This document shows, in pieces, positions 5,474 to 58,391 of a stretch of DNA of 64,000 bases. The stretch is from Dokdonella sp. (GTDB lineage Bacteria > Pseudomonadota > Gammaproteobacteria > Xanthomonadales > Rhodanobacteraceae). The translations under genes and the position numbers were made by a program. The notes beneath the pieces are model-generated. The model did no database searches and was not told where the DNA came from. It saw only the letters and a program-made list of their open reading frames with translations. The stretch's first letter is position 1. Every line of letters begins with the position of its first letter. The stretch lies in NCBI RefSeq assembly GCF_019634815.1, contig NZ_JAHCAP010000002.1:124001-188000 (forward strand), written 5' to 3'.

Positions 5474-6394
5474 ATGACGCATGCCTTCCCGATCGGTACC
5501 CCCGGCCAGCCTTGGGGAGAAGCGGAGACGGCACGCTGGCGCGCTGGTTTGCAGGTGCGGCGCAGTCATGCCGAGGATGTGCTGGCACGAATCGACGCCC
5601 TGCGCGAGCGTTGCGAGGTGATCGAATACGGCCATCTCGACTATCCGCCGCAGCGTTTCCCGCTGTTGGCGCTGCGCAGTCGGCAATGGCACGAGGAGTT
5701 GCCGTTGGCTCTGGTCACTGGCGGCGTGCATGGCTACGAGACCAGCGGCGTGCATGGCGCCTTGCAGTTCGCCGAACGGCATCTCGAGGAGTACGCGGGC
5801 CGGCTCAACGTGCTGGTGGTGCCTTGCGTGAGTCCGTGGGGCTACGAGCGCATCCAGCGCTGGAACCCGCAGGCGCTCGATCCCAATCGCGCGTTCCATG
5901 AGCACAGTCCCGCGCCCGAGTCGGCGGCACTGATGGCGTTCGTGGAGGCGTGGCGCGGGCGCTTCATCGTGCACATCGACCTGCATGAAACCACGGACAG
6001 CGACGAGTCGGAGTTCCGGCCTGCACTCGCGGCGCGCGACGGCAAACCATTCGAGCCGGGCACGATTCCCGATGGCTTCTATCTGGTCGACGATGTCGCG
6101 CAGCCGCAACCGGCGTTTCAGAGCGCGATCATCGCGGCGGTCGAGAGGATCACCCACATCGCTGCCGCCGATGTCCGCGGCGAGATCATCGGCTCGCAGA
6201 TGGTTGCGCCCGGCGTGATCCGCTACGCACTGCGCAAGCTCGGCCTGTGCAGTGGCATCACCAGCGCGCCGTACAGGACCACCACCGAGGTCTATCCCGA
6301 CAGTCCACGCGCAAATCCGGCGCAATGCAACGACGCGCAGGTTGCCGCGGTGCGTGCCGCGCTCGATTTCGCGCTCGCCCACCCACCTCACTGA
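5474..6394 (+). CDS. M14-family zinc metallopeptidase (carboxypeptidase-like)
   Basis: A 306-residue soluble protein of the M14 zinc carboxypeptidase superfamily. The first zinc-ligand motif His-X-X-Glu is visible as GGVHGYETSG (about residues 82-91), and a later histidine pair occurs in IDLHETTDSDESEF (about residues 172-185), which in M14 enzymes includes the third ligand region. A terminal catalytic Glu is plausibly in RTTTEVYP near residue 275. No signal peptide is present, so it should act in the cytoplasm, trimming peptides or hydrolysing amide-linked small molecules as succinylglutamate-desuccinylase-like members do. Substrate cannot be told from sequence. It stands alone, with its own promoter. 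Confidence 0.85.
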   Translation: MTHAFPIGTPGQPWGEAETARWRAGLQVRRSHAEDVLARIDALRERCEVIEYGHLDYPPQRFPLLALRSRQWHEELPLALVTGGVHGYETSGVHGALQFAERHLEEYAGRLNVLVVPCVSPWGYERIQRWNPQALDPNRAFHEHSPAPESAALMAFVEAWRGRFIVHIDLHETTDSDESEFRPALAARDGKPFEPGTIPDGFYLVDDVAQPQPAFQSAIIAAVERITHIAAADVRGEIIGSQMVAPGVIRYALRKLGLCSGITSAPYRTTTEVYPDSPRANPAQCNDAQVAAVRAALDFALAHPPH

Positions 6395-6457
6395 AGCGCC
6401 AGGCGGCATTCACGCCGACCGCACCCAGGACCCACTTTCCGGAATCCGATCAAGACG

Positions 6458-7933
6458 ATGCTCAGTCCCCGACTTCAAACCTTCATGGCCCTGCACCGGG
6501 CCGGGAAATTCGCTGAAGCCGAGGCCGGCTACCGGGACTGCAGGCGCGCCGGCATCGATGTCGTCATTCCCCTCTCGGCATTGTTGTTGCAGCAAGGCCG
6601 CAACGCCGAGGCGATCGTTGAACTCGAGCCCGTGGTGGCGGCACAGCCCGAGAATTTCGCGGCTGTGGTGAACCTTTCGATTGCCCTGCGCCAACAAGGT
6701 GAGGCGGAGCGTGCGCTCGAATACGCGCGTCGTGCCTGTGAGCTCAGGCCCGGAGAGGCCAGCGCCTGCAATGCGCGTGGACTGGCCGCGCTGGCGCTGG
6801 ATGAAAACGAAGAAGCGCTTGCGGCCCTGGACGCGGGACTCAAGTCGGCGCCGGGGAACGTGCCATTGGAGCTGCACCGGGCCAAGGCGCTGCGCAATCT
6901 CGGGCGTTTGCGCGATGCCTTGGCGGCTTTCGAGCGCATCGTGAAGGTGGATCCCGGCATGCTCGAGGCCTGGCGCGATCTCGGCGTGGTGCAGGCCCGC
7001 TTGGGAATGGTCGGGCCGGCACTGGCGAGTGCGACCCAGGCGCGCAACCTCGCGCCGGCCGACAGCGAGGTCCTGCTCGAATATGCCGTCGCCTTGTTGC
7101 GCGCGGGCCGGACCGCCGAGGCGGAACAGTTCCTCGAGCGCGGCGGCGGCAATGGCGGAGCCTGGTTGATGTTCGGTCAGGCGCTGCTGCGTGAAGGCAA
7201 TGTGCAGGGCGCACGCAAGGCACTCGAACGGGCACATGCATTGGAACCGGACAGTCCGTACGTGCGGCACTTCCGCGCCGCGCTTTCGGGCGAGTTGCCC
7301 GAGGGTATCGAAAGCGACTACATCCGCGGCCTGTTCGATGATTTTGCCGATCGCTTCGAATCGACCCTGGTGAACAACCTCGGCTACGGTGTGCCCAAGC
7401 GCCTGCCGAGGTTCCTCGCCGAGCAGGGCGTGGAGACATTCACCGATATTCTCGACCTTGGCTGCGGGACCGGTTTGATGGGCGCGGAGCTGGCGGGCGC
7501 CGGCCGCCGGATCGATGGTGTGGATCTGTCCGGGCGCATGCTGGCCGTTGCCCGTGAAAAGGACGTCTACCGGGAACTGCACGAGGGCGAGGTGCTGGCT
7601 TTCCTGCAGACAGCGCCGCAGCAATGGGATCTGATCGTGGCTGCCGATGTGTTCATCTACATCCGCGCGCTCGAGCCGATCTTTGCCGCGGCATGGCAAC
7701 GCCTGCGGCCAGGCGGTCATTTCGTGTTCTCGATCGAGCGCAGCGAGGGAGCGGAAACGCAATTGATCGCCGAGACCGGCCGCTATCGACACCACGTGCA
7801 GGCATTGCGCGCGGCGCTGGAGCAGGCCGGCTTCACCGGGATATGCCTGGAGGACCTCGTGATCCGCAAGGAATCGGGTCATCCGGTTGCCGGCAGCCTG
7901 CTGCTAGCCCAGCGTCCGCTCAAGCAAGCCTGA
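6458..7933 (+). CDS. TPR-repeat protein fused to a SAM methyltransferase
   Basis: A 491-residue two-part protein. Residues 1 to about 285 form consecutive tetratricopeptide repeats (for example NAEAIVELEPVVAAQPEN, GEAERALEYARRACELRP, GRLRDALAAFERIVKVDP), a protein-protein interaction solenoid. Residues from about 290 form a class I methyltransferase: a helical entry segment YIRGLFDDFADRFESTL, motif I DILDLGCGTGLMG, then DGVDLSGRMLAVAREKDVY and the RPGGHFVFSIE strand. TPR-methyltransferase fusions of this design occur widely in proteobacteria and some modify lipid, quinone-like or protein substrates, but no substrate is deducible here. The 3' end overlaps the convergent methyltransferase gene by 14 bases. 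Confidence 0.88.
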   Translation: MLSPRLQTFMALHRAGKFAEAEAGYRDCRRAGIDVVIPLSALLLQQGRNAEAIVELEPVVAAQPENFAAVVNLSIALRQQGEAERALEYARRACELRPGEASACNARGLAALALDENEEALAALDAGLKSAPGNVPLELHRAKALRNLGRLRDALAAFERIVKVDPGMLEAWRDLGVVQARLGMVGPALASATQARNLAPADSEVLLEYAVALLRAGRTAEAEQFLERGGGNGGAWLMFGQALLREGNVQGARKALERAHALEPDSPYVRHFRAALSGELPEGIESDYIRGLFDDFADRFESTLVNNLGYGVPKRLPRFLAEQGVETFTDILDLGCGTGLMGAELAGAGRRIDGVDLSGRMLAVAREKDVYRELHEGEVLAFLQTAPQQWDLIVAADVFIYIRALEPIFAAAWQRLRPGGHFVFSIERSEGAETQLIAETGRYRHHVQALRAALEQAGFTGICLEDLVIRKESGHPVAGSLLLAQRPLKQA

Positions 7934-48339: not shown

Positions 48340-48368
48340 TTGAGCCGCATCGCGCGGGCATGGATAAT
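48340..48368 (+). promoter_or_regulatory. folD promoter
   Basis: TTGAGC (48340-48345) and GATAAT (48363-48368) are separated by exactly 17 bp and lie 23 bases before the folD ATG. Near-consensus. Confidence 0.7.
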
Positions 48369-48391: not shown

Positions 48392-49246
48392 ATGCACGCA
48401 CGCCTGCTCGATGGTCGCCAAATTGCCGAGAGCGTGCTCGCGGGGGTGGCTGCGCGCGTGCGCGCGCGCAACGCCGCAGGACTGCCGCCGCCCGGTCTGG
48501 CCGTGGTGATGGTGGGCAGTGACCCGGCTTCGGCGGTCTACGTGCGTAACAAGCGCCGCGCCTGCAAGCAGGTCGGCTTTCGGTCGTTTGATTTCGATTT
48601 GCCGGCGAAGACGCCGCAGGCCGAGCTGGTGGCCTTGATTGACCGTCTAAACGCCGACCCGGCGGTGCACGGGATCCTGCTGCAATTGCCACTGCCGCCG
48701 GGCATCGAGGCAACCGCACTGATCGATCGCATCGACGTGCACAAGGATGTCGATGGCTTCCAGGCCGCCAATGTCGGCCGTCTCGCGCTGCGTCAGCGCG
48801 GCTTGCGCCCGTGCACGCCCAAGGGCGTGATGACTTTGCTCGCGCATACCGATCAGCCGGTGCGCGGCCGCAAGGCGGTGGTGCTCGGCGTGTCCAACCA
48901 CGTCGGCCGGCCGCTGATTCTCGAACTGCTGCTCGCGGGCTGCACCACCACCGGTTGCCACAAGTTCACCGCCGATCTGGAGAATGAGGTGCGCGCGGCA
49001 GATATCGTGGTGGTTGCGGTGGGTCGACCCGGTATCGTCAAGGGCGCGTGGATCAAGCCGGGTGCGGTCGTCATCGACGTCGGCATCAACCGACTCGACG
49101 ATGGACGGCTGGTCGGTGATGTGGAGTTCGAATCAGCGGCCGAGCGCGCCTCGTGGATCACGCCGGTGCCCGGTGGTGTCGGGCCGATGACGGTGGCGAC
49201 GCTGATCGAAAACACATTGGAAGCGGCCGAGGATTTCCATGGCTGA
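48392..49246 (+). CDS. folD: Methylenetetrahydrofolate dehydrogenase/cyclohydrolase
   Basis: Bifunctional folate enzyme that makes 10-formyl-THF via methenyl-THF. The 284-residue protein has the catalytic Lys region [20 protein letters not shown], then [19 protein letters not shown] and the nucleotide-binding [17 protein letters not shown]. The closing motif is [15 protein letters not shown] good promoter lies just upstream. It overlaps the TatT gene start by 8 bases at its end. Confidence 0.97.
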
Positions 49247-50117
49247 GCGGGTGATGCACAAGCTCAAGATGACACGTTGGCTGCTCGCGGCGCTCGCGTT
49301 CGTGCTGCTCGCCGGCTGCGCGAGCATCGCCAACAAGGCGAGCCAACGCCTGTCCGACAGTCTCAGCGCCGGGATTCTCGAGCAGGACGACATCGCCACT
49401 GCGCGTGACGGGATTCCGGCCTGGCTGCTGCTCGTCGACGGCATGATTCACAGCGATCCGAAAAACGTCGGCTTGCTGCTGGCTGGCAGCAAGCTCTACG
49501 GCGCCTATGCCGGCGGTTTCGTCGATGACGCGGCGCGCGCCAAGCGCCTGTCGGCGCGAAGTTTCGACTATGCGCGGCGCGCCTTGTGCGTGCGGCGCGC
49601 GGATCTGTGCGCGAAACTGGAGGCGCCATTCGAAACCTTCGAGTCCGAAGTCACCCAATTGCGCGTTGCCGATGTACCGGTCGTCTATGCCCTGGCTGCG
49701 GCCTGGGCGGGTCGCATCCAGGCCAACAGCGAAGACTGGAAGGCCATCGCCGACATTCCGCGGGTGCAGGCCCTGCTCGATCGGGTGGTCGCGCTGCAGC
49801 CGGATTTCGCCGACGGCGAGCCCTACATGTATCTGGGCGTGCTCGCGACCTTGCGGCCGGCATCCCTGGGCGGCAAGCCCGAGCAGGGCAAGGCCGATTT
49901 CGACAAGGCGCTCGCGCTGTCGGGCGGCAAGAACCAGATGGTGCGCGTGCTTTATGCCCAGCACTACGCGCGACTCGTATTCGATCAGGCGCTGCACGAT
50001 CGCCTGTTGGGTGAAGTGCTCGCGGCCGATCCGCACGCGGACAAACTCACCCTGATCAACGTGCTGGCACAGGTGCGTGCGCGCAAATTGCTCGCTTCGG
50101 GCAAGGATTATTTCTGA
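49239..50117 (+). CDS. tatT: TRAP transporter-associated lipoprotein TatT
   Basis: A 292-residue lipoprotein (lipobox [15 protein letters not shown]; Cys about residue 27) of the TatT family, first described from Treponema pallidum, where it forms a helical-repeat scaffold that contacts the TRAP binding protein. The mature region has TPR-like helices and the segment [18 protein letters not shown]. It heads the operon with the binding protein and the two membrane subunits. Its start overlaps folD by 8 bases with GAGGAT 6 bases upstream; an ATG at 49254 is an alternative. TatT-TatP pairs (TPATs) have been proposed to handle hydrophobic ligands. Confidence 0.9.
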
Positions 50118-50173
50118 GTGTCTCGCATCATTCTCACAGTGATGGGCCGCACGGCCCGACCGGAGTCAAGACG

Positions 50174-51172
50174 ATGAAGCTGTACCAGACCCTGCTTGCC
50201 TGCGCGCTCGCTTGCTGCGCCACGCTCACCGATGCCGCCACGCTCAAGATCGCCACGATCGCGCCCGATGGCACCGCGTGGATGCGCGAGATGCGTGCGG
50301 CGGGTGATGCGGTCAAGAGCGCAACCGAGGGGCGCGTCGAGATCAAGTTCTATCCCGGTGGCGTGATGGGCGACGATGCCACGGTGCTGCGCAAGATGAA
50401 GATCGGCCAGCTCCAGGGTGGCGCCTTCACCGGTGGCGAGGCCTCGATCCTCACCAAGGATGCGCAGGTCTACAGCTTGCCGTTCGCATTCCGCAATTTC
50501 AACGAGATCGCCAAGGCGCGCACCAGGCTCGACCCGTTGCTCAAGCAGTCCTTCGCCAAGGCCGGCTATGAACTGCTCGGCATCAGCGGCGGCGGCTTTG
50601 CCTACCTGATGAGCACGCGGCCGATCAAGTCACGCGACGATCTCAAGTCGGCCAAGGTGTGGGTGCCGCAAGGCGACAAGGTCGCCGAAATGTCGTTCTC
50701 CGCGGCCGGGGTTTCGCCGATTCCGCTGCCGCTTGCCGATGTCTACACCAGTTTGCAGACCGGACTCATCGATACCGCCGCCAACACGCTCTCGGGCGCA
50801 CTGGCCTTCCAGTGGCACACCAGGATCAAGCACATCGTCGATCTGCCGCTCAGTTATGTGGTCGGCATCGTGGTGGTCGACAAGAAGCCCTTCGACGCGC
50901 TCTCGGAGGCCGATCGCAAGGCGGTCGAGTCTGCCTTCGCGGCGAGCTTTGCGCGCCTCGAGGACATCAATCGCAAGGACAACGACTCCGCGCGCGAGGC
51001 ACTCAAGGCACAGGGTATTTCGATCGATCCGCCCAGCGAGGCCGACCGCAAGAACTGGGAAGGACTGGGCGCCGAGGTCTACCAGAAGGCGCTCAAGAGT
51101 GAACTTTCGCCCGAGATGGGCCAGGCGCTCGGTGAAGTGCTCGCGACCCTGCATGGCAGCGCCGCCAAGTGA
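50174..51172 (+). CDS. TRAP transporter periplasmic substrate-binding protein (TatP/DctP family)
   Basis: A 332-residue exported binding protein. It begins MKLYQTLLACALACCATLTDA, a signal peptide. The DctP fold is plain: LKIATIAPDGTAWMREM, VEIKFYPGGVMGDDATVL, PLPLADVYTSLQTGLIDTAANT. In most DctP proteins a conserved Arg sits in an L/I-R-V-P segment and binds the substrate carboxylate; here the equivalent KVWVPQG reads Trp in that place (about residue 167). That fits a TatP-type protein with a non-carboxylate or hydrophobic ligand. A hairpin GGGCC-GCAC-GGCCC (50144-50157) and a GGAG precede the ATG. Confidence 0.92.
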   Translation: MKLYQTLLACALACCATLTDAATLKIATIAPDGTAWMREMRAAGDAVKSATEGRVEIKFYPGGVMGDDATVLRKMKIGQLQGGAFTGGEASILTKDAQVYSLPFAFRNFNEIAKARTRLDPLLKQSFAKAGYELLGISGGGFAYLMSTRPIKSRDDLKSAKVWVPQGDKVAEMSFSAAGVSPIPLPLADVYTSLQTGLIDTAANTLSGALAFQWHTRIKHIVDLPLSYVVGIVVVDKKPFDALSEADRKAVESAFAASFARLEDINRKDNDSAREALKAQGISIDPPSEADRKNWEGLGAEVYQKALKSELSPEMGQALGEVLATLHGSAAK

Positions 51173-51675
51173 GCGTATTGCCGGCTGCCTTGCTGCGCTG
51201 GATCGACCGCATCGAGACCGGACTGATTGCGCTGCTGGTGTTGGCGATGGTGGTGCTGGCCGGTGCCCAGATCGTGTTGCGCAATTTTTTCGACACGGGT
51301 CTGGAATGGGCCGATCCGCTGTTGCGCGCGATGGTGCTGTGGGCGGCGATGCTCGGCGCGCTTGCCGCGGCACGCGATGACAAGCACATCGGCATCGACA
51401 TCCTCGCTCATTTCGTCCACGGCAAGCCGCGGCGCGTGATCAAGGCGATCACCTTGCTGTTCGCCGCCGCGCTGTCGGCGGCGATGGCCTGGTACGGCTA
51501 TGGCCTGGTCATGCTCGACTACGGCGGCCATGCGAAGATCGCGGGGATACCGACCTGGCTGGTCGAAGCAATCATTCCGCTCGGCTTTGGCCTGCTGGCG
51601 CTGCGCCTGTGCGTGCATGCCTTCCTGCCGCCACGCAATGAACAGATGCCGGTATTGGCGCCGGAGCTGCCGTGA
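51169..51675 (+). CDS. TRAP transporter small permease (DctQ)
   Basis: The small membrane subunit of the TRAP transporter, 168 residues with four helices: TGLIALLVLAMVVLAGAQIV, DPLLRAMVLWAAMLGAL, ITLLFAAALSAAMAWYGYG, and AIIPLGFGLLALRLCVHAFL. FDTGLEWADPLLRAMVLWAA is the DctQ signature area. Start is GTG at 51169, in a GTGA overlap with the binding-protein gene; its own stop overlaps the next GTG the same way, so the three transporter genes are translationally coupled. Confidence 0.93.
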   Translation: MSVLPAALLRWIDRIETGLIALLVLAMVVLAGAQIVLRNFFDTGLEWADPLLRAMVLWAAMLGALAAARDDKHIGIDILAHFVHGKPRRVIKAITLLFAAALSAAMAWYGYGLVMLDYGGHAKIAGIPTWLVEAIIPLGFGLLALRLCVHAFLPPRNEQMPVLAPELP

Positions 51676-52952
51676 TCGTTCTGGCCATCATCGCCTTGCT
51701 GCTGCTGGCGGCGCTCGGTGCGCCGCTGTACGCGATCATCGGTGCCGTCGCGCTGCTGGGTTTCCACCTTGCAGGACAAGATGGCATCGCGGTTGCGGTC
51801 GAGTTCTATCGGCTCGCCGACATGCCCGCGCTGATCGCGATTCCGCTGTTCACGCTGGCCGGGTACCTGCTCGCCGAAAGCCGCGCGCCGCAGCGCCTCG
51901 TGCGTCTGACCAATGCACTGCTCGGCTGGTTGCCCGGTGGCCTTGCCGTGGTCGCGGTGCTGGCCTGCGCGATGTTTACCGCCTTCACCGGCGCCACCGG
52001 CGTCACCATCGTCGCACTCGGCGCGGTGCTCTATCCGGCCTTGCTGCAGCAGAAATACGGCGAGCGCTTCTCTCTGGGTCTGCTCACCTCGGCTGGCAGT
52101 CTCGGCCTGATCCTCGTGCCGTCGATGCCGTTGATCCTGTACGGCGTGGTGGCGCAGCAATTCCACACCACGCCACCGGTGACGATCGATGATTTGTTCC
52201 TCGCCGGGCTGTTGCCGTGCGCGCTGATGGTGGTGATGCTGTCGGTCTACAGCATCTGGCATGCACGGCGGGTCGGCGTGGCGCGCGAGAAGACCACCGC
52301 GCCGGAGTTGCGCGCGGCCTTGCGCGATGCCTTGTGGGACCTGCCGCTGCCGTTCGTGATACTCGGCGGTATCTACTCGGGCAAGCTCGCCGCTTCCGAA
52401 GCCGCTGCCGCAACCGCGCTGTACGTGTTCATCGTCACCGTGCTGATCCGCCGCGAGATCCCGTGGCGCAAGCTGCCACACGTTGCACGCGAGGCGATGC
52501 TGCTGGTCGGCGCCTTGCTGTTGATTCTCGGCTTCTCGCTCGCACTCACCAATTGGTTGATCGATGCCGAAGTGCCCGAGAAGCTGTTCACGGCAATCCA
52601 GTCACACATCAGCAGCCGCGGCGCCTTCCTGCTTATTCTCAACCTGTTCCTGCTGGTGTTCGGAATGCTGCTTGAAGGCTTCCCGGCGATCATCCTGCTG
52701 GTGCCGCTGGTGCTGCCGGTGGCGCTGCGCTACGGCATCGATCCGGTGCATCTGGGGATTCTCTTTCTCGCCAATCTGCAGCTTGGCATCTTCCTGCCGC
52801 CGGTGGGCATGAATCTGTTCATCGCCAGCATGCGTTTCGGCAAACCGGTGCTCACTCTGGTGCGGGCCGGCGTACCGTTCTTCCTGATCCTGTTGATCGC
52901 GGTGCTGATCATCACCTATTGGCCGGCCTTGTCCCTTGCCTTGATTCGCTGA
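51672..52952 (+). CDS. TRAP transporter large permease (DctM)
   Basis: The large membrane subunit (426 residues, about 12 helices) that forms the sodium- or proton-driven channel. The ion-transporter fold is typified by GAPLYAIIGAVALLG, FTAFTGATGVTIVALGAVLYP and LFLANLQLGIFLPPVGMNLF, which are DctM signatures. The start is GTG at 51672 and overlaps the DctQ stop in GTGA. It ends 16 bases from the convergent efflux gene. Together with the previous three genes it forms one complete TPAT-type transporter. Confidence 0.95.
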   Translation: MIVLAIIALLLLAALGAPLYAIIGAVALLGFHLAGQDGIAVAVEFYRLADMPALIAIPLFTLAGYLLAESRAPQRLVRLTNALLGWLPGGLAVVAVLACAMFTAFTGATGVTIVALGAVLYPALLQQKYGERFSLGLLTSAGSLGLILVPSMPLILYGVVAQQFHTTPPVTIDDLFLAGLLPCALMVVMLSVYSIWHARRVGVAREKTTAPELRAALRDALWDLPLPFVILGGIYSGKLAASEAAAATALYVFIVTVLIRREIPWRKLPHVAREAMLLVGALLLILGFSLALTNWLIDAEVPEKLFTAIQSHISSRGAFLLILNLFLLVFGMLLEGFPAIILLVPLVLPVALRYGIDPVHLGILFLANLQLGIFLPPVGMNLFIASMRFGKPVLTLVRAGVPFFLILLIAVLIITYWPALSLALIR

Positions 52953-52968: not shown

Positions 52969-54243
52969 TCAGTGCTGCGCGTGGCCTTCGGTGTCGTCGC
53001 GCTCGTGCCAAAGTTCATGGCTGTCGATGAGCATGCGCAGATAGGCTTCGTGCGCGTCCGCGCGCTTGCGCAGTTCATCGAGTGTGGCGCCGGCGTCGAG
53101 GCGTTCGGCCTGCAGCCGCTGCGCGAGGTCGATTTCGCCGAGTTCGTAAGCACGCTTCTGGCGCGCAAAACTGCGCGCATTGGCCTCGCGTGCCTGCTGC
53201 GCAGCCTGCCACACGGCCAGCGTGGATTGCACCTGCGCGACACGCAAGCGTGCATCGCGAGCGACCTCGCGGCGCATGCCTCTCGCCTGTGCAGTCAGCG
53301 CGTCGGCCGAGGCGCTCGCGGCACGCGCCTGTGCCGAGCGGCGCGCGCCACCGAACGGAATCTCGAACACCAGGCCGATGCCGCGTTCCATGCCGCCGCG
53401 CTCGGAGAAGGTCTGGATGCCGATGCTTGGATCGGGCAGGCGATCGGCATTGGCGCGCTGTGCGAGCACTTGCTGTTGCGCCGCCAATTCTTCCGCGGCG
53501 CGAATCTCGTGGCTGCGCTCGATGATGCGATCAATCCACACCTGCGGCGCCACATCGAGGGCTTGCGGCTCCGGCAGGAGCGGGGTGCGTTCGGGCAGCG
53601 GAATCTGCGCGAAGTCGGCAGTGAGTCTCAGCCGGCTTGCATCCAGTTCGGCTTGCGCCTGCCGTGCCTGGGCTTCGGCGACGGCCGATTCGGCAGCGAT
53701 CTGTTCGAGTTCGCGTTGCGCCGCGTCGCCCAGTTCCACCCGACGCGCAAGCGCGGCCTGCTCGCGTTGCAGTGATTGGCGGCGTGCCTGCGCTACGCGC
53801 GCGGCGGCATCCGCGCGCAGCCAGTCGATCCAGTCATCGAGCAGGGTGAGGGCGGTCTGGTGTTCGGCGTCGCCCTGCAGCAGTTCAGCGGCGGCCAGTC
53901 CATGCGCGCCAGCCTCACGATCCAATGCAGCCTTGCCGGGCAAGCGAATCGCGCGCGTGAGCTGGGCATTCCATTCGCCGTAGCGGGCGCGACCATCGGC
54001 GGTCGGTGCATCGCGCACGGTGCGTCGCAGCGGCGCAATCGACAGGCTGATGTCGTGCGGGCTCGCGGCGAGTGCGTGGGCGTTCTCGCGCGCTTCGTCC
54101 ACGCGCGCCTGCGCTGCCTCCACCTGTGCGTGGGCGGCGATCGCCGCATGGGCACGGTCGGCCGGCGGCAGGAAGTCCTGCGCGGCAGCGCTGCCGGCAA
54201 GCAGCAGGCTCATGCAGGTGATGCGGCGGACGAGGCGATTCAT
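52969..54243 (-). CDS. TolC-family outer-membrane efflux protein (CusC/CzcC type)
   Basis: A 424-residue outer-membrane factor that makes the exit duct of a tripartite efflux pump. It begins with a signal peptide (MNRLVRRITCMSLLLAGSAAAQ), and the rest is long coiled-coil-like helices with paired repeats of the TolC type, such as AQVEAAQARVDEARENAHAL, QAREANARSFARQKRAYELGE and IDLAQRLQAERLDA. The start overlaps the pump gene stop by 4 bases. A short acidic and His-rich tail (SHELWHERDDTEGHAQH) may bind metals. It is the third gene of the efflux operon. Confidence 0.88.
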   Translation of the reverse strand: MNRLVRRITCMSLLLAGSAAAQDFLPPADRAHAAIAAHAQVEAAQARVDEARENAHALAASPHDISLSIAPLRRTVRDAPTADGRARYGEWNAQLTRAIRLPGKAALDREAGAHGLAAAELLQGDAEHQTALTLLDDWIDWLRADAAARVAQARRQSLQREQAALARRVELGDAAQRELEQIAAESAVAEAQARQAQAELDASRLRLTADFAQIPLPERTPLLPEPQALDVAPQVWIDRIIERSHEIRAAEELAAQQQVLAQRANADRLPDPSIGIQTFSERGGMERGIGLVFEIPFGGARRSAQARAASASADALTAQARGMRREVARDARLRVAQVQSTLAVWQAAQQAREANARSFARQKRAYELGEIDLAQRLQAERLDAGATLDELRKRADAHEAYLRMLIDSHELWHERDDTEGHAQH

Positions 54244-57200
54244 GCGTGGGTCTCCGCGTGTCCGTAGCGAAGGTGGAGCAGGGGCAGCAGGAACAAGGTC
54301 AGGATCGTGGAGCTGACCAAACCACCGATCACGACGATCGCGAGCGGACGCTGGATTTCCGAGCCGGGACCGCTGGCAAACAGCAAGGGGACAAGGCCCA
54401 GCGCGGTGATGCTTGCGGTCATCAGCACCGGACGCAGGCGCCGACGCGCGCCTTCGCGTACGACGTGGTCGGCATCCAGGCCCTGCGCATGCAACTGGTT
54501 GAAGCAGTCGATCAAGACCAGTCCATTGAGCACGGCGATGCCGAGCAGGGCGATGAAGCCCACCGAAGCCGGTACCGACAAGTACTCACCACTGAGCCAG
54601 AGCGCGAGGATGCCGCCGACCAATGCGAATGGCACGTTGCCGAGGATCAGCAGTGACTGGCGCAGCGAGCCGAAGGTCGAAAACATCACGAGAAAAATCA
54701 AACCCAGCGCGATCGGCACGACCAGGGCAAGGCGTGCGGACGCGCGCTGCTGGTTCTCGAACTGGCCGCCCCATTCGATGCGATAACCGGCTGGCAGTTG
54801 CACCGCGCGCGCCACCGCCGCGCGCGCCTCCTCGACGAAACCGACCAGATCGCGGCCATCGACGGCGCTTTGCACGAGCACGAAGCGCGAGCCGTTCTCG
54901 TGATCCACGCGCACCGGACCGGCGGTGGGTTCAAGCGTGGCGACCGCGTTGAGCGGGATCTGTCCGCCGTCATGGCCGGCCAGACTCAGACGCGCAAAGC
55001 TGTCGGCATCGCCGCGTTGAAGCGAGTCGCCACGCACGAGGATCGGAATGCGCCGACCTGGCACGATCACCTCGCCCGCGCGCAAGCCTTCGAGCTGGGC
55101 GCGCAGTTCATCCTGAATCGCGCTGACATCGAGGCCTGCGCGACTGGCTGCCTGCGCATCGATGGCGACGCGCAGGAATTGCGCACCTTCGGCAGTCTGC
55201 GCTATCACGTCCTGCGCGCCGCGCAGCTTGCCCACCACCTCGGCAACGCGCGTGCCCAGCTGCGCAAGCTCGCTCAGGTCCGGACCGAAGATCTTGATCG
55301 CGACATCGCCGCGGCTGCCGGTGAGCATTTCCGAAATGCGCATCTCGATCGGCTGGGTGAAGCCGACTTCAAGCCCCGGAAAGCCCTCGGCGACCTTGCG
55401 CAATTCACCGATCAGCCACTGCTTGTCGCGCACGCGCCATTGCGACTTGGGCTTGAGCTGCAGAAACAGGTCGGTTTCGTTGAGACCCATCGGATCGAGG
55501 CCGAGTTCGTCCGCGCCAACGCGTGCGACCGCATGTTCGACTTCGGGCACCTGCTTGAGGATTTCGCGCTGCAGTTGCAGATCGAGATCGCGCGAGTGGG
55601 GCAGGTTGATCGACGGCAGCTTGACCACTTGCATCGAGATGTCGCCCTCGTCCATCGTCGGCAGGAAGGTCTTGCCGGTGGCGAACCAGGCGAGTGCGCC
55701 GAGTGCGAGCAGGATCGAAGCCGCGATCACCACGATGCGCGGCCGACGCAGCACGCGATCGAGCAAGCGCGCGTAGTGGCGATCGAGCAGGCGCATCAGC
55801 CAGGGCTGCGCATGGCCATGATCCTTGAGCAAGAGCGAGGCGAGCACGGGCACCACGGTCAGCGACAGCAGCAGGGAGCCGCCGAGCGCGAACACGATGG
55901 TGAGTGCGACCGGTGCGAACATGCGCCCTTCCAGCCCCTGCAGGGTGAGCAGCGGCAGGAACACGAGGCAGATGATGAGGATGCCCGCGGCGACGGGAAG
56001 CGCGACTTCGCGTGCGGCCGCACCGATACGTTGCAGGCGTGGCAGGTGCGAATCGGGCGCGGCCGGGTCGAGACGGCTGACGCTGTTCTCGACCACCACC
56101 ACCGCGGCATCGACCAGCATGCCGACCGCGATCGCGAGCCCGCCCAGGCTCATGAGATTGGCGCTCATCCCGAACAGATGCATGGCCAGGAAGGTGAACA
56201 GCGCGGCCAAGGGGAGGATCAACGACACCACCAGCGCGGCGCGGACCTCGCCGAGAAACACGAACAGCAGCAGCACCACGAGCAAGGTCGCTTCGAGCAG
56301 GGCATTGCGCACCGTGCCCACCGCGCGATCGATCAGGGCACTGCGATCGTAGAAGGTCTCGATGCGCACGCCCGGCGGCAGGCTCGGTGCGAGTTCGGCG
56401 AGGCGCGCGCGCACCGCCGTCACCAGATGTCCGGCGTCGGCGCCACGCAGGCCGACGACGATGCCCTGCACGGCTTCGCCCGTGCCGTCGCGCGTGACCG
56501 CGCCGTAGCGCGTCAGTGCTTCGGTGCGCACGTGCGCGACATCGCGCACGCGCAATACCTGCCCGTCGCGCGTGGCAATCACGATTTCGCCCAGGTCGCT
56601 TGCGCCGTGCAACGCGCCTTCGACGCGCACGATCAGGGCCAGCTCGCCCGCGAGCAGACGACCCGCGCCGTCATTGCGGTTGTTGCGCTCGATCGCCTCG
56701 ACCACGTCGTGGAAATTGAGGCCTGCGGCGGCCAGCCTGCCACGATCGGGAATCACGGTGAGGCTCTGCACCTCGCCACCGAGGGCGTTGACGTCGGCGA
56801 CGCCCGCGATCGTGCGCAGCGCCGGGCGCAAGGTCCAGTCGAGCAGGCTGCGCCGTTCACCCAGACTCAGGCCGCCGCCCTCGATCGTGAACATCAACAG
56901 GTCCGAGAGCGGTGTCGCGATCGGCGCGATGCCGCCTTCCACGCCGGCCGGCAAATCGGCCTGCGCATCAGCGAAGCGCTCGCCCACCTGCTGGCGCGCC
57001 CAGTAGATGTCGGTGCCTTCAGCGAAGTCGATGGTGATATCGGCGATCGCGTACTTGGCGACCGAGCGCAGGATGCTGGCCTTGGGCAGACCCAGCAGTT
57101 CCATTTCCAGCGGTTGCACCACGCGCGACTCGACTTCCTCGGGCGTCATGCCCGGCGCCTTGAGGATCAGTTTGACCTGGGTGGGCGCGATGTCCGGATA

Positions 57201-57314
57201 GGCATCGACCGGCAGTGCGCGCCAGGCCAGCACGCCAGCGATCACCAGACCGACGGTGGCGGCCAGTACCAGCAGGCGCTGGCCGAGCGAGAAGCGAATC
57301 AGACGGTCGAGCAT
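54240..57314 (-). CDS. RND heavy-metal-type efflux pump (CusA/CzcA family)
   Basis: A 1024-residue inner-membrane RND pump with the standard two halves of six helices and large periplasmic loops. The TM4 segment AIAVGMLVDAAVVVVENS carries the central Asp and Glu and matches the CusA pattern (AIAxGAMVDAA) more than CzcA, which has Asp in place of the first Ala. Other family marks: LPVDAYPDIAPTQVKL and GGEVQSLTVIPDRG at the N-terminal half, FLPTMDEGDISMQ in the second loop. The Met-rich copper relay of CusA is not obvious. Metal substrate is uncertain; Cu/Ag-like by TM4. It begins 6 bases after the adaptor gene. Confidence 0.93.
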   Translation of the reverse strand: MLDRLIRFSLGQRLLVLAATVGLVIAGVLAWRALPVDAYPDIAPTQVKLILKAPGMTPEEVESRVVQPLEMELLGLPKASILRSVAKYAIADITIDFAEGTDIYWARQQVGERFADAQADLPAGVEGGIAPIATPLSDLLMFTIEGGGLSLGERRSLLDWTLRPALRTIAGVADVNALGGEVQSLTVIPDRGRLAAAGLNFHDVVEAIERNNRNDGAGRLLAGELALIVRVEGALHGASDLGEIVIATRDGQVLRVRDVAHVRTEALTRYGAVTRDGTGEAVQGIVVGLRGADAGHLVTAVRARLAELAPSLPPGVRIETFYDRSALIDRAVGTVRNALLEATLLVVLLLFVFLGEVRAALVVSLILPLAALFTFLAMHLFGMSANLMSLGGLAIAVGMLVDAAVVVVENSVSRLDPAAPDSHLPRLQRIGAAAREVALPVAAGILIICLVFLPLLTLQGLEGRMFAPVALTIVFALGGSLLLSLTVVPVLASLLLKDHGHAQPWLMRLLDRHYARLLDRVLRRPRIVVIAASILLALGALAWFATGKTFLPTMDEGDISMQVVKLPSINLPHSRDLDLQLQREILKQVPEVEHAVARVGADELGLDPMGLNETDLFLQLKPKSQWRVRDKQWLIGELRKVAEGFPGLEVGFTQPIEMRISEMLTGSRGDVAIKIFGPDLSELAQLGTRVAEVVGKLRGAQDVIAQTAEGAQFLRVAIDAQAASRAGLDVSAIQDELRAQLEGLRAGEVIVPGRRIPILVRGDSLQRGDADSFARLSLAGHDGGQIPLNAVATLEPTAGPVRVDHENGSRFVLVQSAVDGRDLVGFVEEARAAVARAVQLPAGYRIEWGGQFENQQRASARLALVVPIALGLIFLVMFSTFGSLRQSLLILGNVPFALVGGILALWLSGEYLSVPASVGFIALLGIAVLNGLVLIDCFNQLHAQGLDADHVVREGARRRLRPVLMTASITALGLVPLLFASGPGSEIQRPLAIVVIGGLVSSTILTLFLLPLLHLRYGHAETHA

Positions 57315-57320
57315 GCTGCC

Positions 57321-58391
57321 TTACTCGCCACGCAGGGATTTGAGTGCGCTGGCGCCGCTGTTCACGACCAGGTCGCCATCCTCGAGTGCGCCGCGGACGA
57401 TGGCATGGCGCTCATCTCCGCCAATGCGTTCGACGCTGACCGCGTGGTAGCGCTGGCCGTGGGCGATGAAGAGTTCGAGCGTGCTGCCGCTGGCGATGAG
57501 AGCGGAAGTCGGTACCTGCACGGCATCGGCGGGCGCGCGCAATTCCAGTCGCACCTGGCTGCGCTGACCGATGTGCCAGCGCCCCGCATCGGCCAGACGC
57601 GCACGCAGGCGGATGCTCTGGCCGCCGCTGGTGGTTGCGTGTGCGACCGCGACCACTTCAGCTCGCGCGCCATCGTCGAGGATCACGCCAAGGCCCGGTG
57701 CGTAGTCGGCGGCATGGTCAAGCGGCGCCTGCACCAGCAGGTCGACCTCGTTTCCGGCGGCGATCGTGAATGCCGCTTCGAACGCGGCCACACTTTGTCC
57801 GGGCACGATCGCGCGCTGCAGGATGCGACCATCGATCGGCGCGCGCAGTTCGTATTCACCCGGCGCGCCGTCCTTGGGTGTCACCGCTGCGGCGAGCGAC
57901 TCCCGTGCCTGCTGCAGGCGCGCCTGCGCATCGGCCGCGCGGGCCTTGCTCGCGTCGGCACGCGAGCGCGCGATGATGCCCTCGTCGAGAAGGCTCGCAT
58001 CGCGGCGCGCCTGGCTCTGCGCGAGCTCAGCGTCGCTGCGACTGCGCTGCAGTTCGGCGCGTGCAGCGAGGAAATCGCGGCTGTGCACGCGTGCGAGCGG
58101 CGTACCGGCACGCACCTGCGCGCCTTCGTCGGCGCTGATGCTGGCGACCACGCCGGCAAACGGCGTGCTCACCGTGCGCGTGGCATCGAGCGGCGCAATG
58201 ATCTCGGCTGGCAGGCGCGACAGCGGCAAGGTCTCGGCTGCAACGGCTGCAATGGTCGTGATCTTGAGCGCGGCGATCTGGCGCGCGTCGAGTTCGATCA
58301 CCGGTTCCGATTGGGCGTGCGTCCGGGTGGCAAGCAGGCAGATCAAGCCCAGCGCGAAGATGCGGGCAGCGTGGGGAATCATGGCGGGCAT
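57321..58391 (-). CDS. Efflux periplasmic adaptor (membrane fusion protein)
   Basis: A 356-residue adaptor that bridges the pump and the outer-membrane duct. A signal peptide (ALGLICLLATRTHAQ) leads to a lipoyl/hairpin/barrel organisation: FAGVVASISADEGAQVRAGTPL is the first lipoyl half, a coiled-coil segment runs through LAARAELQRSRSDAELAQSQ, and ELRAPIDGRILQRAIVPGQ is the second lipoyl half. No His-rich N-terminal metal motif of the CzcB kind is seen. It is the first gene of the three-gene efflux operon; the pump starts 6 bases on. A start four codons later (58382) is possible. Confidence 0.9.
   Translation of the reverse strand: MPAMIPHAARIFALGLICLLATRTHAQSEPVIELDARQIAALKITTIAAVAAETLPLSRLPAEIIAPLDATRTVSTPFAGVVASISADEGAQVRAGTPLARVHSRDFLAARAELQRSRSDAELAQSQARRDASLLDEGIIARSRADASKARAADAQARLQQARESLAAAVTPKDGAPGEYELRAPIDGRILQRAIVPGQSVAAFEAAFTIAAGNEVDLLVQAPLDHAADYAPGLGVILDDGARAEVVAVAHATTSGGQSIRLRARLADAGRWHIGQRSQVRLELRAPADAVQVPTSALIASGSTLELFIAHGQRYHAVSVERIGGDERHAIVRGALEDGDLVVNSGASALKSLRGE

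Follow-up and report, generated by a model that had tools for sequence, protein, structure and literature searches.

A TatT-associated TRAP transporter of Dokdonella with tryptophan and alanine at the carboxylate-contact sites of its binding protein and permease

A 64,000-nucleotide stretch of a Dokdonella sp. contig (NZ_JAHCAP010000002.1, positions 124,001 to 188,000; hereafter the window) encodes a four-gene cassette, tatT-tatP-tatQ-tatM, that joins the components of a tripartite ATP-independent periplasmic (TRAP) transporter to a TatT protein, i.e., a tetratricopeptide repeat (TPR) protein-associated TRAP transporter (TPAT). The two positions that contact the ligand carboxylate in characterized TRAP systems are occupied by other residues, namely tryptophan in the binding protein TatP and alanine in helical hairpin 1 (HP1) of the large permease TatM. 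Judged from sequence, these two changes would remove the grip on a carboxylate. We consider it probable that the system is a Trp-type TPAT importing a hydrophobic, non-carboxylate ligand, which TatT, predicted to lie in the outer membrane, would pass to a soluble TatP and this in turn to TatQM.

The initial annotation had proposed a complete TPAT-like operon at 49239..52952, and its description of the locus held. Four open and consecutive open reading frames (ORFs) lie there on the + strand and match the Pfam families TatT (PF16811, 249.2 bits), DctP (PF03480, 164.9 bits), DctQ (PF04290, 104.5 bits) and DctM (PF06808, 259.6 bits); the first gene, on whose relation to TatT the proposal had been staked, passes the PF16811 cut-off of 26.5 bits, and its product is predicted to have the TatT fold. 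The tatM product also scored 330.9 bits with TIGR00786 and matched the permeases 9pym, 7qha and 7qe5. The last three genes overlap in GTGA junctions as described, the tatP stop with the tatQ start at 51169-51172 and the tatQ stop with the tatM start at 51672-51675, leaving Q and M as two separate ORFs and not one gene. The same order was found in relatives: since T was followed by P in 36 of 36 related loci, their association is not due to chance, and Q and M followed as well in 35, whereas in the remaining one the contig breaks off within P.

In DctP proteins, the arginine equivalent to Arg147 of SiaP grips the ligand carboxylate and is required for high affinity; it is found in 96.8% of 6142 sequences, its commonest replacement is phenylalanine and not tryptophan, and Tp0957, the Treponema pallidum TatP, has alanine (PMC4646407). 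Aligned to this arginine, the window TatP has Trp163. Among 80 distinct TatT-linked P proteins, window included, 77 carry Trp and 2 carry Phe at the site, with no Arg and one row cut, and Trp also occupies it in 120 of 120 homologues among the matches listed (120 of 5558). DctP controls, by contrast, have Arg in 50 of 50; the first 30 of them came from near the top of their list and the other 20 were picked from lower listed rows. The TatP profile aligned 45 of the 50, and a second profile, made from these 45, aligned the full set. Eleven signatures set the clade apart, of which site 163 is the sharpest (Trp in 77/77 against Arg in 45/45 controls); the others include G62, R73, Q79, R116, Q213, W214 and P225. 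In the two Phe-type proteins, whose motif reads K-L-F-V-W, Phe falls on the site in the profile alignment and the next Trp does so with MAFFT, neither being Arg. TatT-linked sets were deduplicated for the Arg-site, signature, TatT lipobox and permease counts and were not for the related-locus order, selected-region and TatP lipobox counts or the first HP1 reading; locus L116, whose contig ends inside P, was dropped from the Arg-site counts. As a separate observation, Arg116 (50519-50521) and Gln213-Trp214 (50810-50815) of TatP are fixed in 77/77 Trp-type proteins and rare in controls, and perhaps form an interface with TatT.

A second carboxylate contact is changed in the permease. In Fusobacterium nucleatum SiaQM, Ser300 of HP1 contacts the carboxylate and the Ser300Ala variant is inactive (PMC11801797). 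HP1 of TatM reads T-G-A-T where solved permeases have S-G-S, and Ala108 is the Ser300 equivalent. Across 61 distinct TatM proteins, this site is Ala in 56, Gly in 5 and never Ser, compared with Ser in 25, Ala in 3 and Ile in 1 of 29 control DctM proteins (30 loci, with L196 dropped for want of a match), in which the serine is therefore not universal. The neighboring Ser298 site is Thr in all 61 TatM and Ser in 27, Ala in 1 and Thr in 1 of the controls. Because the carboxylate contacts in both P and M are absent across the sampled TatT-linked set, an acid is argued against as ligand.

The route of import would start at TatT, which had been described as a lipoprotein and is predicted to be one from its lipobox (LLAGC), the cysteine of which is kept in 54 of 54 aligned TatT proteins. 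As a rule, lipoproteins without Asp at position +2 are sorted to the outer membrane. The +2 residue of the window TatT is Ala and not Asp, and Asp occurred there in none of the 72 TatT proteins, among 81 distinct, that fit a loose lipobox pattern; we infer from the lipobox and this rule that TatT resides in the outer membrane. TatP is presumably soluble: its only candidate lipobox, an LLAC at residues 7-10, lies in our judgement closer to the N-terminus than signal peptides usually allow, and the window TatP is not among the 5 of 99 scanned loci in which a lipobox pattern occurs within 30 residues of the start. In the proposed mechanism, TatT would hold the hydrophobic ligand in its pore, TatP would bind at the mouth of this pore, in the manner of 4di3, and pass the ligand to TatQM, and TatQM would move it inward on an ion gradient, direction and drive being taken from the analogy with other TRAPs. 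Solved structures of TatT and of BstC show hydrophobic pores or tunnels (PMC5812351, PMC10942540), BstC accepts sterols in docking (PMC10942540), and FadL-like barrels have been proposed as feeders of the T. pallidum system (PMC8407342). Two further features of TatT and its relatives were recorded. Cys117 and Cys124 (49587-49589 and 49608-49610) are near-invariant, being kept in at least 90% of the 54 TatT and missing in L041, the fused-QM type row shown, and a disulfide between them is possible. In addition, the TatT-like proteins L091 and L092 (the latter at 5481-6524, - strand, PF16811 68 bits, between pdxJ-like and response-regulator-like ORFs as read from the ORF list) have no TRAP gene by profiles in the fetched stretch, and such proteins may be TatT relatives working with other partners.

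Several points weigh against import of a hydrophobic ligand. The TatT-linked P proteins form a single clade (support 100; tree from a quick search, with 43 rows TatT-linked and 30 from controls), and therefore one ancient Arg-to-Trp change could account for all of them. TatM also forms one clade (quick tree, no mixture model), and its loss of Ser300 may likewise be a single event; both trees came from quick searches and had long control branches with warnings, the P tree taking 30 of the 45 controls. The Ser300 change may moreover concern sodium rather than the ligand: PpSiaQM S106 and S108, by our alignment the same serine pair as Ser298 and Ser300, lie in the Na1 hairpin, and the S106-S108A variant, with about 3% activity, was interpreted as affecting a sodium site (PMC9971032). 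The closest solved matches of the window TatP, by sequence and by fold, are ordinary DctPs of small solutes, whereas by profile the Tp0957 chains rank 7 and 10; the gene neighbors examined provided no lipid link.

The last two points would suit an importer of a small polar non-acid, i.e., a neutral aromatic, an amine or an amino alcohol (e.g., ethanolamine), in which TatT would serve only for docking or storage. Csal_0678, a TRAP binding protein that lacks the arginine, has ethanolamine as its ligand (PMC4646407), and a Trp in the site might provide cation-pi or stacking contacts. We nonetheless regard this alternative as unlikely, given the hydrophobic pores and tunnels of solved TatT and BstC and the fact that strong TatT matches with fetched surroundings adjoin TRAP genes, which would favor a shared ligand path over simple docking. 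Gene neighbors were clustered around 36 selected TPAT loci, and Pfam models were applied to 14 of 234 neighbors, mostly from recurrent clusters, without any pointer to a substrate among them. These 14 are housekeeping or unrelated genes: guaB, guaA, hisS-like, bamB-like, a YfgM-like TPR protein, moeA, an ABC exporter, gamma-glutamyltranspeptidase, an aminopeptidase, a rhomboid protein, two regulators, an NTP transferase and an LVIVD-repeat protein. The home-made gene caller used here returned four edge genes as empty and overlooked cassette genes in a few loci (e.g., L079).

Import of a carboxylate after all, for instance a fatty acid whose long tail provides affinity while other residues hold the head, appears somewhat less likely still. 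SiaP without Arg147 functions at high ligand concentration (PMC4646407), the genome has a FadL-family gene, and TatP offers a candidate replacement in Arg116, present in 77/77 Trp-type proteins against 4/45 controls; the possible role of the Ser300 change in sodium handling would also fit. However, the HP1 contact is lost in 61/61 TatM, and the predicted helix that holds Arg116 (residues 109-129) may not face the pocket. An ordinary C4-dicarboxylate TRAP, to which automatic annotation of P points, is highly improbable despite the DctP fold of P and the database name of close TatP homologues ("TRAP-type C4-dicarboxylate transport system substrate-binding protein"), as the P arginine and the permease serine are gone and the set includes a tatT gene. 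A self-made hopanoid was set aside as ligand since the genome had no SQHop_cyclase_N match, whereas uptake of hopanoids from outside would still be compatible.

We also compared TatM with the sodium-site residues defined for HiSiaQM (PMC10942642). The equivalents of Gly337 and Pro342 are kept in 61/61 TatM and that of Gly517 in 60/60 readable ones, the Val340 equivalent is Leu, Phe or Ile, and the first proline of the pair in transmembrane helix 5 is kept in 3/61 TatM against 29/29 controls. At the Thr561 site, whose equivalent Thr369 is required in PpSiaQM (PMC9971032), 41 of the 61 distinct TatM carry Thr, 15 Leu, 3 Met and 1 Pro, and 1 has a gap, while the 29 controls have Thr in 21, His in 5 and Ser in 3. 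The Leu group includes the window and results from a single change on the tree. With Leu in place of this Na2 threonine, ion coupling may therefore differ in the window's lineage, and coupling at the Na2 site may be weaker or absent there. A wider form of the hydrophobic-ligand reading is less likely than not: through loss of both carboxylate contacts and gain of an outer-membrane TatT, a TRAP branch may have turned into an ion-driven, ATP-free system that brings lipids, or hydrophobic compounds of other kinds, inward from the outer membrane to the inner one. It would then be the analogue of Mla driven by a secondary transporter, and in the Rhodanobacteraceae it may also have given up the second sodium site.

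Within the 3.24-Mb genome (60 contigs), the PF16811, PF06808 and PF03480 models had one match each, all at tatTPQM, and revealed no further TRAP system. The initial annotation had called TatT systems uncommon compared with plain TRAP operons. Strong PF16811 matches (at least 177 bits, our own cut) occurred in 6/398 genomes of the phylum, compared with DctP in 66/100, and in 79/200 genomes of the order, window's genome included; at E ≤1e-3, the figures were 11/398 and 82/200. TPATs are thus rare in the phylum and frequent in the window's order, though G110, from the same genus as the window, showed no TatT. No TatT match was found in 72,556 plasmid records (E 1e-3) that would indicate plasmid spread, and none by profile in 80 control loci (50 DctP, 30 DctM). 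Among 40 selected regions, 29 had TatT by profile: 26 read T-P-Q-M, L117 T-P-QM with a fused permease and L088 T-QM, and L116 is cut inside P. The other 11 (L091, L092, L099-L107), with weak PF16811 scores, had no match to the TatT, TatP, TatQ or TatM profiles and were left out of every TatT-linked count.

The surroundings of the cassette are also conserved. folD lies upstream of tatT in 25/36 related loci and was found in 16/16 selected TatT-less relatives from two families, in which guaB stands just downstream of folD in 15/16 (the exception being G110). In TatT-bearing loci, guaB follows the cassette in 24/39 examined, sometimes with a gap fitting another gene (at least one genome being duplicated). 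We infer that, in these families, T-P-Q-M is a discrete cassette in a fixed folD-guaB slot. In the window and in L004, a close relative, tatM is followed by a gene for an outer-membrane efflux protein on the opposite strand; in the window, this gene belongs to a CusA/CzcA-type resistance-nodulation-division (RND) efflux set (52969-58391, - strand) that is convergent to tatM and occupies the place that guaB has in many relatives. The tatT start overlaps the folD end by 8 bases (folD stop 49246) and is uncertain between ATG codons at 49239, 49254 and 49269, all upstream of the lipobox Cys27; tatT and tatP are 56 bases apart. One promoter-like site (at 48340; 0.7 expected) and nine terminator-like sites (4.6 expected), of which none follows tatM ahead of the next gene, were not used as evidence.

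Table 1. Features of the tatTPQM locus and adjoining genes (window positions)
Feature	Position	Strand	Basis
tatT, TatT / TRAP T-component, 292 aa, predicted lipoprotein	49239..50117	+	PF16811
tatP, solute-binding protein of the DctP family, 332 aa, predicted soluble (has a signal peptide; lipobox not convincing)	50174..51172	+	PF03480
tatQ, DctQ small permease, 168 aa, GTG start	51169..51675	+	PF04290 (104.5 bits), sequence
tatM, DctM large permease, 426 aa, GTG start	51672..52952	+	PF06808, TIGR00786, solved permeases
folD, conserved upstream neighbor	48392..49246	+	NF008058 (449.3 bits)
TatT lipobox Cys27 codon (LLAGC-A)	49317..49319	+	sequence
TatP Trp163 codon TGG, position of SiaP Arg147	50660..50662	+	alignment
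TatM Ala108 codon, equivalent of FnSiaQM Ser300 (HP1)	51993..51995	+	alignment
TatM Leu375 codon, equivalent of HiSiaQM Thr561 (Na2 side-chain ligand)	52794..52796	+	alignment
RND set, outer-membrane protein	52969-54243	-	
RND set, RND pump	54240-57314	-	TIGR00914 (983.6 bits)
RND set, adaptor-like ORF	57321-58391	-	ORF

TPATs in proteobacteria are already known, and close relatives already carry the NCBI name "TRAP transporter TatT component family protein." What is new is the replacement of Arg by Trp in TatP together with the loss of Ser300 in TatM across the sampled TatT-linked sets. The Trp type and the Ser300 change in TatT-linked systems were absent from the titles and abstract openings of the literature searched, consisting mostly of papers outside subscription, and neither the separate-QM Trp type nor the joint loss of both carboxylate contacts nor the folD-guaB slot came up in it. 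TRAPs have been described as high-affinity acid importers in which one binding-protein arginine filters carboxylates (PMC4646407); here, a clade frequent in one order has lost both this arginine and the permease serine in every readable TatT-linked case sampled. If our interpretation is correct, a simple sequence rule would separate non-acid TRAPs from those now labelled "C4-dicarboxylate," and the TPAT ligand question could be addressed in relatives available in culture, among them Rudaea cellulosilytica and Arenimonas donghaensis.

The founding TPAT is TatT-TatP-TatQM of T. pallidum (Tp0956-Tp0958), for which a model has been published along with TPATs in 35 other species, proteobacteria included (PMC5812351). 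It differs from the window set in having Ala and not Trp at the arginine site, a single tatQM gene instead of separate Q and M, and a lipoprotein TatP (Tp0957; PMC5812351), whereas the window TatP has no convincing lipobox; the two TatT proteins share 23% identity, and other solved structures match the window TatP more closely than Tp0957 does. Fused-QM TPATs from the same order (L117 of G147 and L088 of G063) resemble the window in placing a TatT-family gene beside DctM and in having lost Ser300 (HP1 motif TGG), but have DctQ and DctM in one ORF, as confirmed by Pfam. In L088, a binding-protein gene was not found in the space from TatT to the fused permease. The P proteins of L040 and L117 differ from the window TatP in having Phe at the arginine site and Tp0957 chains as nearest solved matches, the Phe of L040 aligning to the Tp0957 Ala. 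Genomes with a fused-QM TPAT also hold main-type TatT, namely L089 (T-P-Q-M) in G063 and L116 (cut inside P) in G147. In the Methylococcus sterol transporter BstABC, the partner BstB is a phosphonate-type and not a TRAP binding protein (PMC10942540). The BstC model NF045602 gave the window TatT 23 bits against a cut-off of 350, so TatT is not a BstC equivalog by this model. BstA is an RND pump, unlike the TRAP permease of the window. The 2023 structures 8g52 and 8g53, which bear the name "bacterial TPAT family transporter" and for which we found no paper, show 20% identity. Finally, the sialic acid TRAP SiaPQM shares DctP, DctQ and DctM with the window set, and the equivalents of its Gly337, Pro342 and Gly517 are kept in TatM, but it lacks TatT and has Arg147 and Ser300, the window set being reversed on all three. 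The window system lacks the Arg147 equivalent and HP1 serine of a classical carboxylate TRAP and the fused Q-M and lipoprotein P of the Treponema arrangement, and it has these features of a TPAT: a PF16811 protein with the predicted TatT fold and a lipobox, encoded with DctP, DctQ and DctM, and an Arg-less P.

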